DNA from: Pseudomonadota bacterium | Lineage (GTDB): Bacteria; Pseudomonadota; Alphaproteobacteria; Rhizobiales; Rhizobiaceae | Direction: 5' to 3' | Length of the DNA: 6,232 bases | Assembly: GCA_023428515.1 (NCBI GenBank) | Contig: JAEYXI010000574.1 | Coordinates: forward strand, 1 to 6,232 | Part shown: piece after piece, positions 1-6,212 of the stretch | Layout of the letters: the number at the start of each line of letters is the position of its first letter | Numbering within the stretch: the stretch's first letter is position 1 | Program-made: the position numbers and the translations under genes | Notes under the pieces: generated by a model | The model's input: the letters and a program-made list of their open reading frames with translations, nothing else | Told to the model about the DNA's origin: nothing | Database searches by the model: none

Positions 1-290
1 GAATCGAAGAGGAAAGGCATGTTGTCGTTGACGACGGTGACCGCGGTGAGCGGCCGGCCGTTGCGGACGATGCCGGGATCGGTGTCGACGGCGATGACGC
101 TCTGGCCCTTGCGGTGGGAGAGCACCGCCTTCTCCGCCAGCGCCGCAGCCTTCGCGAGCACCTTAGGCTCATAGGAGGCGACATCTTCAGCCGGCGCGCG
201 GGCGAGCAGATAGTTGGCCAGGCCGCCGGCTTTGGATGAGATCGGAGACTTTCGGGTGGCCGTTGCCGGTTTAGCGCGAGCGGTGTCCAT
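1..290 (-). CDS. NAD-specific glutamate dehydrogenase, N-terminal fragment (cut by window edge)
   Basis: Only the first 96 codons are present; the gene continues beyond position 1. The translation starts MDTARAKPATATRKSP. It contains a helical stretch, LLARAPAEDVASYEP (about residues 28-42), and ends in VTVVNDNMPFLFDS (about 83-96). The 'hARAPAEDh..Y.P' segment followed by 'V.hVNDxMPFLhDS' is the N-terminal signature I associate with the very large (about 1,600-residue) NAD-dependent glutamate dehydrogenases of proteobacteria. These cytoplasmic enzymes oxidatively deaminate glutamate to 2-oxoglutarate and ammonium. No catalytic residues lie in this fragment, so the call rests on the N-terminal domain alone. 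The ATG at 288-290 has a strong Shine-Dalgarno (GGGGAGGGA, 298-306) seven bases upstream, which fixes the start. The gene lies 176 bp downstream of the LysE-type exporter gene, in the same direction. Confidence 0.85.
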   Translation of the reverse strand, partial: MDTARAKPATATRKSPISSKAGGLANYLLARAPAEDVASYEPKVLAKAAALAEKAVLSHRKGQSVIAVDTDPGIVRNGRPLTAVTVVNDNMPFLFD

Positions 291-297
291 CGTCGAA

Positions 298-333
298 TCC
301 CTCCCCGAAGCATGTTTTGCGGTCATCGTAGCA
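298..333 (-). promoter_or_regulatory. Shine-Dalgarno and possible extended -10 for the glutamate dehydrogenase gene
   Basis: On the minus strand, GGGGAGGGA (306-298) is a very good ribosome-binding site for the ATG at 290. Further upstream, TGCTACGAT (333-325) fits an extended -10 pattern (TGnTAnnnT) and would give a leader of roughly 30 nt. I see no good -35 at 16-18 bp, so the promoter part is weak; the ribosome-binding site is firm. Confidence 0.35.
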
Positions 334-378
334 GAAGCTTGAAGTTTGGCGACCGGCGAATGCCAGAAGCTGCGATGA
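323..378. repeat. Imperfect inverted repeat with a nested direct repeat upstream of the glutamate dehydrogenase gene
   Basis: TCATCGTAGC (323-332) and GCTGCGATGA (369-378) are inverted copies with one mismatch (a G-U pair in plus-strand RNA). The octamer CAGAAGCT also occurs twice in direct orientation (332-339 and 364-371). The left arm overlaps the candidate -10 at 325-333, so an operator role is possible. The arms are 36 bp apart and may be coincidental. Confidence 0.3.
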
Positions 379-381
379 CGT

Positions 382-405
382 CGACGCGCCCGGGCGAGCG
401 CGTCG
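382..405. repeat. GC-rich hairpin between the LysE-type gene and the glutamate dehydrogenase gene
   Basis: CGACGCGC (382-389) pairs perfectly with GCGCGTCG (398-405) around an 8-base loop. It lies about 60 bp past the stop of the LysE-type gene and about 90 bp before the dehydrogenase start. Neither strand has a T tract after it, so it is not a standard intrinsic terminator. It could be a transcript-end stabilising or pause structure. Confidence 0.4.
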
Positions 406-466
406 GCTGATGATTGCGGAAAATGCAGGCGGCAGATGAACGGGTTATGACGCCGATATTGTGGCG

Positions 467-1081
467 CTACGACCGCGCCGCTATGGCCGCCGCCGCGCCG
501 CCCATCGTGGTGGCGCTGATACGGTTGGCGATCCGCATGGCGCGCTCGCTCCTGAGCAGTTTTCGCGCCTGCGATGCGGCGAGCACCCAGGTGAGATCGA
601 TGGCGATCAGGACAATGGCCATGGTGACCGTCAGCTCGACCCAGCCGAGCATGGTCACCGAGCCGAGATCGATGATCGTGGGCAGCAGCGCGAGATAGAA
701 CATCATGATCTTCGGATTGCCGAGCGTCACCGCCATGCCGGCAAGGAAAAGCTTAGCCGGCGAATCCTCGCGCGGCATGTCGCTGTCGCCGACAGCGACC
801 GGCGCCGTCCACATCTTCCAGGCGAGCCAGGCGAGATAGGCGACGCCCACCCATTTCACGATGACGAAGGCGAGGTGGAAGGTCTGCGCCACGAAGGCCA
901 AACCGAACACCGCCATGGAGAGCCAGATCGCCTCGCCGATCCACATCGCCGCGAGGAAGGGAAACACGTCGCGGAAACCCTTGGAGATGACGCGCGCCAC
1001 GAGTGCAGCGATCGACGGACCGGGCGATCCGGCCGCGACCAGAAGGGCGCCGGCGAAGATGAGGAGCGAGCTAAGCGTCAT
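467..1081 (-). CDS. LysE/RhtB-family amino-acid exporter
   Basis: This 204-residue inner-membrane protein belongs to the LysE/RhtB translocator superfamily, which exports amino acids or related metabolites by secondary transport. It has the expected family size and helix pattern: a hydrophobic N-terminal helix (about 4-18), the family signature SPGPS (19-23), helices at about 38-66 and 70-92, a hydrophilic loop (about 94-110), the second signature GNPKIMMFYLALLP (121-134), and helices at about 145-170 and 186-201. The ATG at 1079-1081 is chosen because GGAGG (1089-1093) sits seven bases before it; an in-frame ATG at 1105 would add eight residues but has no ribosome-binding site. The gene starts 73 bp after the DMT permease stop with no terminator visible between them, so co-transcription is plausible. 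Substrate cannot be predicted. Confidence 0.92.
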   Translation of the reverse strand: MTLSSLLIFAGALLVAAGSPGPSIAALVARVISKGFRDVFPFLAAMWIGEAIWLSMAVFGLAFVAQTFHLAFVIVKWVGVAYLAWLAWKMWTAPVAVGDSDMPREDSPAKLFLAGMAVTLGNPKIMMFYLALLPTIIDLGSVTMLGWVELTVTMAIVLIAIDLTWVLAASQARKLLRSERAMRIANRISATTMGGAAAAIAARS

Positions 1082-1154
1082 CAGATATCCTCCTTCCTTC
1101 ATCATAGCCGCTTTTTATTCACGGCCAAATGGCTTCGGAAACCTGCCTACGCCG

Positions 1155-2109: not shown

Positions 2110-2195
2110 AAGGCCAAGGGATCAGCCTGGCCGTATCTCACGGTCCAGATGGAGGGCTACCGCACATACGGGGCTTGGAGAACGACGCCTGGAGG

Positions 2196-2555
2196 CTATT
2201 TGACCACGCGCATCTTCGGCAGTCGTCGCTTCGGTCCGTAAGGGCTGTCGGGATTGACGTCGAGATCGACGTCCCTGACGCAGCTCTGCCTTTGGCTGTG
2301 CTCGCTACCCGAATGCCAGGGACCATCGACGATCTCGGCGTCGCTCACCTCCACCAGCGACAGGCATTTCCACTGCCCGCGCACCGGCCCCTTGCTGCCC
2401 TCACCTTCGATCTGCCAGGTCAGCGCCTTCTCGGCGCCGTCGGTATGGCCGAGGATGATGGGACAGAGTGCGCGCGGATGGCCATGATACATGCAGACGA
2501 CCGGCTTTTTCGAGGCCATCGCCTCGGCGAACAACTCGTAGGTGCGGCTCGGCAT
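2196..2555 (-). CDS. Conserved protein of unknown function with four cysteines
   Basis: This is a 119-residue soluble protein with no signal peptide or membrane segment. I recall similar uncharacterised proteins in proteobacteria but cannot assign a function. Visible features are an N-terminal helix (MPSRTYELFAEAMASKK), then CMYHGHPRALCP (21-32) with two cysteines, ILGHTDGAEKALTWQIEG (34-51), QWKCLSLVEV (61-70), and a His/Cys-rich tail with GPWHSG (78-83), H86 and C92 leading into VDLDVNPDSPYGPKRR. C21, C31, C64, C92 and nearby histidines could bind a metal, but the spacing matches no zinc motif I know. The strand-rich middle recalls small WYL-like or SH3-like folds; this is only an impression. 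The ATG (2553-2555) has GGAG seven bases upstream (2563-2566), placed inside the typA terminator hairpin. No dedicated promoter is obvious in the 62 bp separating it from typA. Confidence 0.8.
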   Translation of the reverse strand: MPSRTYELFAEAMASKKPVVCMYHGHPRALCPIILGHTDGAEKALTWQIEGEGSKGPVRGQWKCLSLVEVSDAEIVDGPWHSGSEHSQRQSCVRDVDLDVNPDSPYGPKRRLPKMRVVK

Positions 2556-2556
2556 T

Positions 2557-2591
2557 AAAAAACTCCGTTCGGCACGCGCCGAACGGAGTTT
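2557..2591 (-). terminator. Intrinsic terminator of typA
   Basis: A perfect 14-bp stem joins 2560-2573 to 2578-2591 around an ACGC tetraloop (2574-2577). Read on the minus strand it is followed by six T residues (2562-2557, the first three also closing the stem as A-T pairs). It begins 26 bases after the typA stop codon (2618-2620), a textbook Rho-independent layout. Its T tract ends one base before the ATG of the next gene. Confidence 0.93.
2563..2566 (-). promoter_or_regulatory. Shine-Dalgarno of the 119-residue gene inside the terminator stem
   Basis: GGAG on the minus strand lies seven bases before the ATG at 2555. It belongs to the 3' arm of the typA terminator hairpin, so it is base-paired whenever the full hairpin forms. 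The terminator T tract is also the spacer between this site and the start codon. Confidence 0.65.
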
Positions 2592-2617
2592 ATTCAGTCC
2601 GCGTTCCTTGAAAAGGC

Positions 2618-4444
2618 TTATGCCGCACCGCTGATCTTCTGCTTCTCGAAACGCTTGCGCTCGTTGGGATCGAGATAGAGCTTCCGCAGCCGGATGGTCT
2701 TCGGCGTCACCTCGACCAGCTCGTCGTCCTGGATCCAGGCAAGCGCGCGCTCCAGCGTCATGCGTACCGGTGGGGTCAGGCGCACCGCCTCATCCTTGCC
2801 GGCGGCGCGGATGTTGGTGAGCTTCTTTCCCTTCACCACGTTCACTTCGAGATCGTTGTCGCGCGAATGGATGCCGATGATCATGCCCTGATAGACCTTG
2901 ACGCCGGCGTCGATGATCATCGGGCCGCGGTCTTCCAGGTTCCACATCGCATAGGCGACGGACTCGCCCTGCTCGTTGGAGATGAGCACGCCGTTGGTGC
3001 GGCCGGGCAGCTCGCCCTTGTAGGGCTGGTAGGAGTTGAACAGCCGGTTCATGACGGCGGTGCCGCGCGTGTCGGTCAGTAGCTCCGACTGGTAGCCGAT
3101 CAGGCCGCGCGTCGGCGCGTGGAAGACGAGACGCTGGCGGTTGCCGCCCGAGGGCCGCAGCTCGACCATCTCGGCTTTGCGCTCGCTCATCTTCTGCACG
3201 ACGATGCCGGCATGTTCCTCGTCGTCGTCGATGACGACTTCCTCGACCGGCTCGAGCAAGGTGCCGTTGTCGTCCTTCTGCATGACGACGCGCGGACGCG
3301 ACACGGCGACCTCGAAACCTTCGCGGCGCATCGTCTCGATGAGCACGGCAAGCTGAAGCTCGCCGCGACCCGAGACGTAGAACGAATCCTTGTCGGCCGA
3401 TTCCTCGATCTTCAGCGCGACGTTGCCCTCGGCCTCCTTGAGCAGGCGGTCGCGGATCACGCGGGAAGTGACCTTGTCGCCCTCGGTTCCCGCGAGCGGG
3501 GAATCGTTGACGATGAAGGACATGGTGACGGTCGGCGGATCGATCGGCTGCGCCTGCAGCGGCTCGGTCACCGCGGGATCGCAGAACGTGTCGGCGACGG
3601 TGCCTTTCTGCAGTCCGGCGATGGCGACAATGTCGCCGGCCTGGGCTTCCTCGATCGGCTGGCGCTCAAGTCCGCGAAAGGCGAGGATTTTCGAGATGCG
3701 GCCCTGTTCGACGAGCGAGCCGTCGCGGGCAAGCACCTTGACCGCCTGGTTCGGCTTTATCGAACCGCTCTCGATGCGGCCAGTGATGATGCGGCCGAGG
3801 AACGGATTGGCTTCGAGAATGGTGCCGATCATGCGGAACGGGCCGGGATGGACGGTCGGCGCCGGCACGTGCTTCAGCACCAGGTCGAAGAGCGGGGCGA
3901 GGCCCAGGTCCTTCGGTCCCTCGGGGTTTTCCGACACCCAGCCGTCGCGGCCGGAGCCGTAGAGGATCGGGAAGTCGAGCTGCTCGTCGGTGGCGTCGAG
4001 CGCGGCGAAAAGGTCGAACACCTCATTGACCACCTCGACATGGCGGGCATCGGGACGATCGATCTTGTTGATGACGACGATCGGCTTCAAGCCGACCTTG
4101 AGGGCCTTGCCGACGACGAACTTGGTCTGCGGCATCGGGCCTTCGGCGGCGTCGACCAGCACAATGGCCGAATCCACCATCGACAGGATGCGCTCGACCT
4201 CGCCGCCGAAATCGGCGTGGCCGGGCGTGTCGACGATGTTGATGCGCGTGTCCTTCCAATCGACCGAGGTCGCTTTGGCGAGGATGGTGATGCCGCGCTC
4301 CTTCTCGAGGTCGTTGGAGTCCATGGCGCGTTCGGCGACGCGCTGGTTCTCGCGGAAGGCGCCGGACTGTTTGAGGAGCTGGTCGACGAGGGTGGGCTTG
4401 CCATGGACGACATGCGCGATGATCGCGATGTTTCTAAGATTCAT
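2618..4444 (-). CDS. typA: Translational GTPase TypA/BipA with an atypical P-loop
   Basis: This is a 608-residue ribosome-associated GTPase of the EF-G/LepA group, involved in ribosome assembly and stress or cold adaptation. The full domain series is present: GTPase (1 to about 195), beta-barrel domain II (about 203-290), EF-G-like domain III with SGRGELQLAVLIETMRREGF (358-377), domain V (about 396-480) and the TypA-specific C-terminal domain (about 485-605). Switch I (RGITI, 50-54), G3 (DTPGH, 72-76, including catalytic H76), G4 (NKID, 126-129) and G5 (GSG, 163-165) are intact. The P-loop is not: residues 10-17 read AHVVHGKP where the family has AHVDHGKT, so Asp13 is Val and the Mg-coordinating Thr17 is Pro, while Lys16 is kept. 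Residues 404-410 read VIDDDEE where I recall VIDVDEE. Length and C-terminus are normal, so this is not an obvious pseudogene. The start has only a weak GAGA ribosome-binding site, but MNLRNIAIIAH is the standard N-terminus. Confidence 0.96.
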   Translation of the reverse strand: MNLRNIAIIAHVVHGKPTLVDQLLKQSGAFRENQRVAERAMDSNDLEKERGITILAKATSVDWKDTRINIVDTPGHADFGGEVERILSMVDSAIVLVDAAEGPMPQTKFVVGKALKVGLKPIVVINKIDRPDARHVEVVNEVFDLFAALDATDEQLDFPILYGSGRDGWVSENPEGPKDLGLAPLFDLVLKHVPAPTVHPGPFRMIGTILEANPFLGRIITGRIESGSIKPNQAVKVLARDGSLVEQGRISKILAFRGLERQPIEEAQAGDIVAIAGLQKGTVADTFCDPAVTEPLQAQPIDPPTVTMSFIVNDSPLAGTEGDKVTSRVIRDRLLKEAEGNVALKIEESADKDSFYVSGRGELQLAVLIETMRREGFEVAVSRPRVVMQKDDNGTLLEPVEEVVIDDDEEHAGIVVQKMSERKAEMVELRPSGGNRQRLVFHAPTRGLIGYQSELLTDTRGTAVMNRLFNSYQPYKGELPGRTNGVLISNEQGESVAYAMWNLEDRGPMIIDAGVKVYQGMIIGIHSRDNDLEVNVVKGKKLTNIRAAGKDEAVRLTPPVRMTLERALAWIQDDELVEVTPKTIRLRKLYLDPNERKRFEKQKISGAA

Positions 4445-4633
4445 GATCTGGTCTCGGGGGTGCTGCAGCGCCTGTTTCCGGCGCCACGAGTTCGGTTGCG
4501 CGGCTCATACAGGTTTTTTCGCAGTTGCGAAAGACCCCGGTTAAGACGGGTGGTTACCGAAAATTAGCCATTGGCTGCGACAACAAATCGCTAACCAATG
4601 CGGATCGTTCCTGCGCTGGAAGAGTTAACGGAC
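4445..4633. other. Divergent intergenic region between typA and the small exported-protein gene
   Basis: These 189 bp hold no supportable gene. The typA leader side has a small stem, GCGCC/GGCGC (4468-4472 with 4480-4484). A TTTCGC/GCGAAA hairpin (4517-4522 with 4527-4532) is preceded by six T residues. An 11-bp palindrome, AGCCATTGGCT (4566-4576), has a related inverted CCAATG at 4595-4600. Both genes must be transcribed from here or nearby, but I see no promoter with good -35 and -10 elements at correct spacing. The CATTGG/CCAATG pair is the best operator candidate. Confidence 0.4.
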
Positions 4634-4918
4634 ATGACCACGGCATTTTCCAGGATTTTTCGGACGACTGCAGCCACGGCGGCGCTTGCCGTTCTGCTGG
4701 CCGCCGGCGTCGCGCATTCGACCGGTACGCGGCAGATCGAAGGTCCGGCCTTCGCGGCGCAAACTCCCGCAGAAGAAGCCTTTGCCGACGCGCCTTACGG
4801 TGTCGACCCGATGGTGACCGGGCCGACCAGCGCCTCTTTCAAGAAAGAGCAGGCCGACGCCGGGTGCGACAAGGCCGTCTGGCCGAATATTCCGCTCGCC
4901 TGCTATCCGAAGCGCTAG
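4634..4918 (+). CDS. Small predicted exported protein with C-x4-WP-x5-C motif
   Basis: This is a 94-residue protein of unknown function. The N-terminus looks like a Sec signal peptide: basic residues R7 and R10, then a hydrophobic core TAATAALAVLLAAGVAHS (about 12-29). Cleavage may follow AHS or the later AFAA (39-42). The mature part is short, Pro/Ala-rich and hydrophilic, and ends in a compact motif, GCDKAVWPNIPLACYPKR (77-94), with C78 and C90 flanking W83-P84. Two cysteines in an exported peptide suggest a disulfide. I recall similar C...WP.I...C tails in small rhizobial periplasmic proteins, with no known function. The ATG at 4634 is preferred because GGAAGAG (4618-4624) precedes it by nine bases and the signal peptide then starts at residue 1. 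An in-frame ATG at 4598 lacks a ribosome-binding site. Its stop overlaps the hydrolase stop on the other strand, and no terminator is visible. Confidence 0.75.
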   Translation: MTTAFSRIFRTTAATAALAVLLAAGVAHSTGTRQIEGPAFAAQTPAEEAFADAPYGVDPMVTGPTSASFKKEQADAGCDKAVWPNIPLACYPKR

Positions 4919-5592
4919 GCCGACTTCTCCAGGATTCTCGTCAGTTCGTCGGGCTCTTCGATCGCGATGTCGTGGCCGCACGCCACTTCATAAACGCTCC
5001 AGCCCTTGTCGGCGCGAAACGCCGCGGCGGCCTCCTTGAATGGGCTGTCCCAGCCGGTTGCCTGGACGAAGCTCTTCTTGGGAACAGTCTTGTAGGCGCC
5101 GGTCACGCGGGCTCGCTCGGTAAAAGTTCCAGCCGGCTGCGGCGTCGCCTTCTCGTTGACCCAGATACGGTCGGCGTCGTCGCGATAATCGCCGATGACC
5201 GCTGGCGGCGCGGGGATCAGCGCCTCGGGCGGGAGGTTCCATTCCGGCGCAAAGTCGGCGAAGGCCTGGCCATCATCAGGAATGAACGCGTCCACGTAGA
5301 CGATCGAACTCAAACGGTCGGCGACTTTTTCGGCCACGCCGGTTATGACGAAGCCACCGTATGAGTGACCGACGAGCACCACATCGTCGAGATCCTTCCA
5401 GCGGATCTCGTTGACCACGTCGTCGATATGCGTGGTCAGGTTGATCGCGTTTCCGGCGAGGTGGGAGCGTTCGCCGAGCCCGCTCAGCGCCGGAACAAAG
5501 ACACGGTGTCTCCTGGAAACCAGCCGGTCGGCTACCCGCATCCATGCCCAGCTGCCGGCCCAGGCTCCATGCACTACCACGAATGTCGCCAT
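4915..5592 (-). CDS. Alpha/beta-fold hydrolase (esterase-like)
   Basis: This is a 225-residue cytoplasmic alpha/beta hydrolase without a signal peptide. It opens with a strand and the oxyanion-hole motif VVVHGAWAGSWAW (5-17; H8, G9). The nucleophile elbow is GHSYGG (75-80), with catalytic Ser77. The probable base is His207 in ACGHDIAIEEP (204-214). The acid is uncertain: Asp101 in YVDAFIP or Asp182 in TGWDSPF. The HGAW...GHSYGG combination and size recall the plant methylesterase/EstC-like carboxylesterase group; the true substrate is unknown. The start is set at the ATG 5590-5592, which has GGAGG (5598-5602) five bases upstream. Earlier in-frame starts at 5604 and 5658 lack a ribosome-binding site and precede the first strand. 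It is divergent from an HxlR-type regulator gene and probably controlled by it. Its stop codon (CTA, 4915-4917 on the plus strand) overlaps that of the convergent small gene. Confidence 0.92.
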   Translation of the reverse strand: MATFVVVHGAWAGSWAWMRVADRLVSRRHRVFVPALSGLGERSHLAGNAINLTTHIDDVVNEIRWKDLDDVVLVGHSYGGFVITGVAEKVADRLSSIVYVDAFIPDDGQAFADFAPEWNLPPEALIPAPPAVIGDYRDDADRIWVNEKATPQPAGTFTERARVTGAYKTVPKKSFVQATGWDSPFKEAAAAFRADKGWSVYEVACGHDIAIEEPDELTRILEKSA

Positions 5593-5608
5593 CTGTTCCT
5601 CCATCTGA

Positions 5609-5637
5609 TTGCATTTTCTAACTGGTTCGACTATTAT
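5609..5637 (+). promoter_or_regulatory. Sigma-70-type promoter of the HxlR-type gene
   Basis: TTGCAT (5609-5614) and TATTAT (5632-5637) are separated by 17 bp, giving good -35 and -10 matches for a housekeeping promoter. Transcription would start near 5644, leaving a leader of about 32 nt before the ATG at 5676. The left operator-like arm lies between the two elements. Confidence 0.6.
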
Positions 5638-5664
5638 ATCAGTGGTTAGAATTTGCAACTGGTT
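5616..5664. repeat. Operator-like repeats in the hydrolase/HxlR divergent promoter
   Basis: TTCTAAC (5616-5622) and GTTAGAA (5645-5651) form a perfect 7-bp inverted repeat, about 29 bp centre to centre, roughly three helical turns. It brackets both -10 elements. In addition AACTGGTT occurs twice in direct orientation (5620-5627 and 5657-5664), with a related CAGTGGTT at 5640-5647. HxlR-type dimers commonly bind such sites beside their own promoter, so this is the likely site for autoregulation and control of the hydrolase. Confidence 0.5.
5633..5638 (-). promoter_or_regulatory. -10 element of the hydrolase gene
   Basis: The minus strand reads TATAAT exactly at 5638-5633, overlapping the -10 of the opposite promoter. 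Transcription would start near 5626, about 34 bases before the hydrolase ATG. No good -35 is found at 16-18 bp (TTGCAA at 5658-5653 is only 14 bp away), which suggests a promoter that may need an activator. Confidence 0.5.
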
Positions 5665-5675
5665 TTTGCGCAGCT

Positions 5676-6212
5676 ATGAAAAAATCCGACGATGCCCATC
5701 GATCCGGCTGTCCGATCAACCTCTCGGTGGAGGTTTTTGGTGACAAATGGTCTCTTGTCATCCTCCGCGACATGATCTTCGGCGGCCGTCGGCACTTCCG
5801 GGAGCTTCTCCTGAACTCGCAGGAAGGCATCGCGTCGAACATGCTGGCTGACAGGCTTAAATCGCTGGTGGAACTCGGCCTGCTCACCAAGGCAGACGAC
5901 CCGACCCATAAGCAGAAGGCCGTCTACAGCCTCACCGAAATGTCGATCGCGCTGGTCCCGATCATGGCGCATCTGGGCGCCTGGGGCCGCAAGTGGCTGC
6001 CTGCGAGTGAAGCTTTGTCGATCCGGGCCGAACTCATGGAAGAGGGCGGCCCGGAATTGTGGGAAAAGTTCATGGCCGAGCTGCGCGAGGAGCACCTCGA
6101 CCATCCGACCGGCTCGCTCGACCCCTTCCGCCCCGGCTCTGTCCGCGCCGGCTTGCGGGCAGCTTATGAGGAAGTGGCGGGCAAACAGGCGGCCCAGGCC
6201 GAAGCCCAATGA
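5676..6212 (+). CDS. HxlR-family winged-helix transcriptional regulator
   Basis: This is a 178-residue cytoplasmic DNA-binding protein. The HxlR domain covers about residues 10-107: CPINLSVEVFGDKWSLVILRDMIFG (12-36) with the family GDKW core, HFREL (40-44), the recognition-helix region GIASNMLADRLKSLVELGLL (51-70), a wing (about 74-86, ending VYSLTE) and a C-terminal dimerisation helix with LGAWGRKW (100-107). Cys12, the only cysteine, is at the N-terminal position used for thiol or quinone sensing in some relatives such as YodB, so redox control is possible. Residues 108-178 form a helical, charged extension beyond the roughly 110-residue core; similar tails occur in longer HxlR proteins and their role is unclear. 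There is no clear Shine-Dalgarno before the ATG. The gene is divergent from the alpha/beta hydrolase gene across 83 bp with overlapping promoters and repeats. Confidence 0.93.
   Translation: MKKSDDAHRSGCPINLSVEVFGDKWSLVILRDMIFGGRRHFRELLLNSQEGIASNMLADRLKSLVELGLLTKADDPTHKQKAVYSLTEMSIALVPIMAHLGAWGRKWLPASEALSIRAELMEEGGPELWEKFMAELREEHLDHPTGSLDPFRPGSVRAGLRAAYEEVAGKQAAQAEAQ

Follow-up and report, generated by a model that had tools for sequence, protein, structure and literature searches.

A double P-loop substitution confined to one Rhizobiaceae TypA record: local consensus error or recent loss of GTPase function?

In the typA (bipA) gene of a Rhizobiaceae contig (analysed here as a single window, that is, the whole stretch of 6,232 nucleotides), the P-loop is written AHVVHGKPT, whereas all relatives that we read carry AHVDHGKT[T/S]. 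Does this pair of changes describe a TypA that works without its GTPase, a gene that has lost its function, or only the record in which it stands? The question matters in both directions: if the pair is real, it could show in a natural setting whether 50S assembly depends on the GTPase of TypA, while substitutions seen in a single record at near-universal catalytic residues are easily misread as degenerate GTPases. To part an artefact from a lineage trait, the count of private residues by source, the count of transitions and transversions and the branch lengths per codon position are helpful. The features considered are collected in Table 1.

Table 1. Features of the window considered in this work, with the codons discussed in the text.
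Feature	Coordinates	Strand	Reading	Remarks
typA/bipA	2618-4444	minus	complete 608-codon ORF, full length	TIGR01394 TypA_BipA, Pfam domains
codon 13	4408-4406	minus	GTC, Val	K-3 of Walker A; all relatives read have Asp
codon 17	4396-4394	minus	CCC, Pro	K+1 of Walker A; all relatives read have Thr
codon 407	3226-3224	minus	GAC, Asp, in EFG_C domain	V407D, third radical private change; Val in 120/120 listed relatives
codon 537	2834-2836	minus	GTG, Val, in BipA_C domain	L537V, conservative; Leu in 120/120 listed relatives
lysE	467-1081	minus	LysE-family exporter gene	in-window control

The product belongs to the TypA/BipA orthologue group. It scores 910 bits over residues 3-598 against the TIGR01394 TypA_BipA equivalog model (cut-off 757.3) and contains the Pfam domains PF00009, PF03144, PF00679 and PF21018, the last of which, specific to the TypA C-terminus, covers residues 484-592 (E 4.3e-47). 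The BipA structures 5a9v, 4zci and 8ewh, which we take to be of the E. coli protein, align over residues 2-600 (5a9v with 692 bits), and the alignment to the 5a9v chain shows that the catalytic His in DTPGH and the NKxD base-recognition motif are conserved; the P-loop of 5a9v, HVDHGKTT, is unlike the one found here. Rhizobiaceae TypA/BipA orthologues (e.g. P0001, P0003, P0009) have the same domains and are 94-96% identical over the full length, differing from the present protein, which has Val for Asp at position 13, Pro for Thr at position 17, and the private changes V407D and L537V. The original prediction had read codon 13 of the TypA P-loop as GTC and codon 17 as CCC, each one base away from a codon found in relatives, and both points are confirmed on the minus strand, inside the complete 608-codon frame. 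Its further statement that the other G motifs, and the 608 residues as a whole, are unharmed is wrong, since V407D and L537V had been overlooked.

As written in the record, AHVVHGKP departs from the Walker A motif [G/A]xxxxGK[S/T] (defined in a passage of PMC9599734). According to the same source, the side chain of the K+1 Ser/Thr coordinates Mg2+ throughout the P-loop NTPases, is strictly conserved in this role and also makes a hydrogen bond with the Walker B Asp. The P-loop Asp of translational GTPases serves to bind a monovalent cation (as described in part of PMC4342817), and the record has Val in its place, although that source names exceptions to the rule, EFGII with Gly and eIF2gamma with Ala. 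In those two cases the replacement is described as family-wide, whereas the present one occurs in a single record, where the K+1 Thr is lost as well. A TypA with this pair would be expected to bind Mg-GTP poorly. On this expected chemistry (the K+1 Thr as Mg2+ ligand, the Asp linked to a monovalent cation) the original prediction was sound, in line with the sections of PMC9599734 and PMC4342817 just mentioned.

The pair was sought by alignment in close relatives, where the original prediction had left room for its being shared, and was found in none. HVDHGKTTL is present in 120/120 of the nearest listed TypA proteins (the best 120 of 8000 scored, 91-96% identical), and 80 genome loci gave 77 HVDHGKTTL, two HVDHGKTSL and one HVDHGKTTM. 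Fetched loci that include the P-loop and share 60% identity or more number 134 (some places were fetched twice), with 132 reading AHVDHGKTT and two AHVDHGKTS, so that the V/P pair is absent from all 120 nearest listed proteins and from all 134 fetched TypA loci. We also scanned genomes for exact codon forms of the altered motif. In 297 family genomes, the pattern AHVVHGK matched one place and HV[V/A/D/E/G]HGKP matched 11 places in 10 genomes, the latter scan covering P17 only after a codon 13 beginning with G; in 398 phylum genomes, IAHVxHGK with a middle base of codon 13 other than A matched once, a scan that leaves out P17 with Asp at 13. Twelve of these 13 matched places were read and all lie outside TypA, while the remaining one (G157:C56) is on a different contig from the TypA of the same genome. 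A scan of viral contigs with both variable bases left open returned 0 matches, and a plasmid collection held no close match, the best being 88.7% over 66% of a 201-base query or, with the window as query, 85% over 29% of the window. A trait of the lineage was considered and rejected, V13 or P17 being found in no relative read (120 proteins, 134 loci and the pattern scans), and the pair is likely not the mark of a new kind of TypA.

The two P-loop changes have company in the same gene. Compared with the 120 nearest listed relatives (again the best 120 of 8000), TypA here has eight private residues, four of which (V13, P17, D407 and V537) fall in the 408 columns that are invariant in those relatives. 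In 93 wider codon sets, column 407 holds 92 V and 1 I, and column 537 holds 90 L, 2 I and 1 M. The remaining four, at 180, 229, 379 and 395, are in variable columns, and the residues found here at 180, 229 and 395 occur in wider relatives. Over the 120 listed relatives, private residues at invariant columns total 39 (mean 0.33), and only P0028 and P0051 reach four and tie with the present protein; their changes are mostly conservative, unlike those seen here, which counts against an error. When divided by source, with groups picked by hand from the nearest-protein listing, such residues number 2 in the 30 isolate-named proteins and 13 in the 16 whose contigs are shorter than 5 kb, the remaining 74 proteins having 24. 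This contrast is confounded and partly a sampling effect, since the database offers isolates closer relatives. The three most radical of the private changes counted in the 120 are N213I and V440G in P0022 and H442L in P0075; judged from the protein and by codon logic, they would be single transversions.

At the base level, tblastn against 128 loci, with matches kept from 70% identity upwards, gave 98 codon sets, 94 of them distinct (window included), and base changes were counted in the 36 sequences of at least 90% identity (the window and 35 relatives). Nine typA sites that are fully conserved in the 35 relatives are changed here, and all nine changes are transversions; summed over the 35 relatives, the same class comprises 64 transitions and 46 transversions (Fisher p = 0.00066). 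With the conservation threshold relaxed to 90, 70 and 40%, the excess gives p = 0.025, 0.11 and 0.21, and the transversion signal is therefore suggestive only. A smaller set of 18 chosen loci gave 2 transitions and 10 transversions for typA versus 86 and 70 for the relatives. Codons 13 and 17 each carry a transversion, the two lying at a distance of 11 bases, and codon 29 has a third private one 36 bases further on. Purely random errors should include some transitions, which counts against an error, as does the lack of any stop or frameshift within typA, an observation that speaks against a null allele as well.

Selection on the gene as a whole was assessed with a codon-position tree of 36 sequences at 88% identity or more. 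The terminal branch of typA has about 57 expected changes at positions 1+2 versus 272 at position 3, a ratio of 0.21, which is at the upper end of the range among the 35 relatives (0.02-0.29) but inside it; the gene as a whole therefore seems to have been under ordinary purifying selection. A long-standing null state does not fit this ratio. An old pseudogene was accordingly rejected, the reading frame being intact as well. If the four changes at invariant columns were taken as the product of relaxed selection, the relaxation would span, by rough arithmetic, about 1% of the terminal branch.

The neighbouring lysE gene served as a control. Against 120 relatives it has no private residue (95/204 columns being invariant), and its product is 99% identical to P0121, with differences at three naturally variable positions. 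The 18-locus test gave lysE 3 private changes (2 transitions and 1 transversion) over 293 conserved sites and typA 12 over 1183 (10 of them transversions), so that the two rates are about the same while the transversion excess of typA is missing from lysE. Since lysE does not share the typA pattern, it speaks against a high error rate across the whole window. The zero count of private residues is weak evidence, as only about 0.9 would be expected at the typA rate over 95 invariant columns, and errors of local extent would still be compatible with it. At the 68 conserved sites of gdhN and the 50 of the 106-aa gene, which are few, there is no private change; relatives for the base-level test were likewise few for eamA and duf119 (2 each) and for abh and hxlR (1 each).

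Taken together, we lean towards the reading that V13 and P17 are a local consensus error in this single record, to which we give somewhat better than even chances on the strength of sequence comparison. The errors might have arisen in base calling or assembly at low coverage, within an otherwise ordinary Rhizobiaceae typA gene, and the TypA that the organism itself makes would then carry the usual P-loop, be able to bind GTP and serve in 50S assembly as the relatives' proteins do. The record is probably metagenomic, as we judge from the best listed database protein being 96% identical. We infer wrong bases from the private pair, from the other private transversions in typA and from the normal constraint elsewhere. 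The pattern by which an artefact may be recognized, changes that are private to one record and have private company at further invariant sites of the gene, is the one found here, and the fact that the companions in typA include further private transversions counts for an error. The original prediction offered three inferences and ranked sequencing error as the less likely cause; the private pair, the accompanying radical transversion V407D and the finding that private changes at invariant columns are commonest in short-contig proteins all lean the opposite way. Its doubt about random error keeps some force nonetheless, in that the clean lysE next door favours it.

The main rival is a real and very recent GTPase-null allele of typA, in a gene only just starting to decay, which we regard as possible, though doubtful. 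Without the K+1 hydroxyl, Mg2+ would lack one of its ligands, and without the P-loop Asp there would be no site for the monovalent cation; the allele would be tolerated because TypA is conditionally dispensable; in this sense, it is in favour of the allele that bipA is not essential for growth of E. coli under normal conditions (stated in part of PMC6962249). The absence of private residues from lysE in the same window also suits it, and V407D, likewise radical and private to this typA, is compatible with relaxed constraint. A typA match at E 1e-200 is found in 287/297 family genomes; of the ten others, five gave pieces at E 1e-40 and five (G008, G114, G193, G241 and G255) gave no match at that threshold, which reflects either incomplete assembly or a true absence and, as the latter, would favour a dispensable gene. 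On the other hand, one such change would be enough to disable the GTPase, and drift is not expected to put two radical changes into the P-loop within 15 bases. In Sinorhizobium meliloti, moreover, typA is reportedly required for stress adaptation and symbiosis (work attributed to Kiss et al. 2004), which counts against a tolerated loss.

We consider it improbable that both transversions were introduced in one step in a real cell, by a single clustered mutation event of an error-prone polymerase. The spacing of the two, together with the third private transversion at codon 29, is what such an event could leave, but the private changes at 407, 537 and elsewhere are outside the cluster, and a consensus sequence alone cannot part this event from a local error. 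Less probable still is a TypA kept as an assembly factor that binds the ribosome without nucleotide cycling, its P-loop lacking both the Mg2+ and the monovalent-cation ligand: the complete reading frame, the full set of TypA domains and the changed P-loop Asp of EFGII and eIF2gamma (part of PMC4342817) would agree with it, but the pair is shared by no relative read, strict conservation is described for the Walker A Ser/Thr (passage of PMC9599734), and E. coli BipA H78A fails to complement the deletion and makes growth worse, H78Q working partly (from a portion of PMC8313970). This reading has no support. For another BipA variant, N128D, GTPase activity is about 5-fold lower and the growth effect is unlike in two Salmonella strains (excerpt of PMC12013901).

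Some further observations concern the surroundings of the gene and its copies in the family. An EamA-family transporter gene (1155-2141) separates lysE from the 119-aa gene. Of the syntenic relatives found, the closest (L129, in G071) aligns with window positions 1-1128 and 2112-6208, not with the eamA stretch, and two other loci (L094 and L107) align over part of lysE and eamA. P0121 has 12 member sequences, from the sources lgn and ena, and the 99% identity of LysE to it means that the same or a very close species is probably present in another record. Two family genomes, G176 and G183, have two typA matches each at E 1e-200; the three copies that cover the P-loop read AHVDHGKTT, while residue 64 is the first that the other G176 match covers. 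In G183, both typA genes (L144 and L146) are full-length, 66-67% identical to the query and provided with a standard P-loop. The typA of G091 is matched as two adjacent pieces (L147 and L152) whose frames differ and whose junction is near residue 300. Finally, a record titled Bacillus subtilis SK6B4 (L016, JAHREI010000001.1) encodes a TypA that is 84% identical to this Rhizobiaceae protein, and its title probably names the wrong organism.
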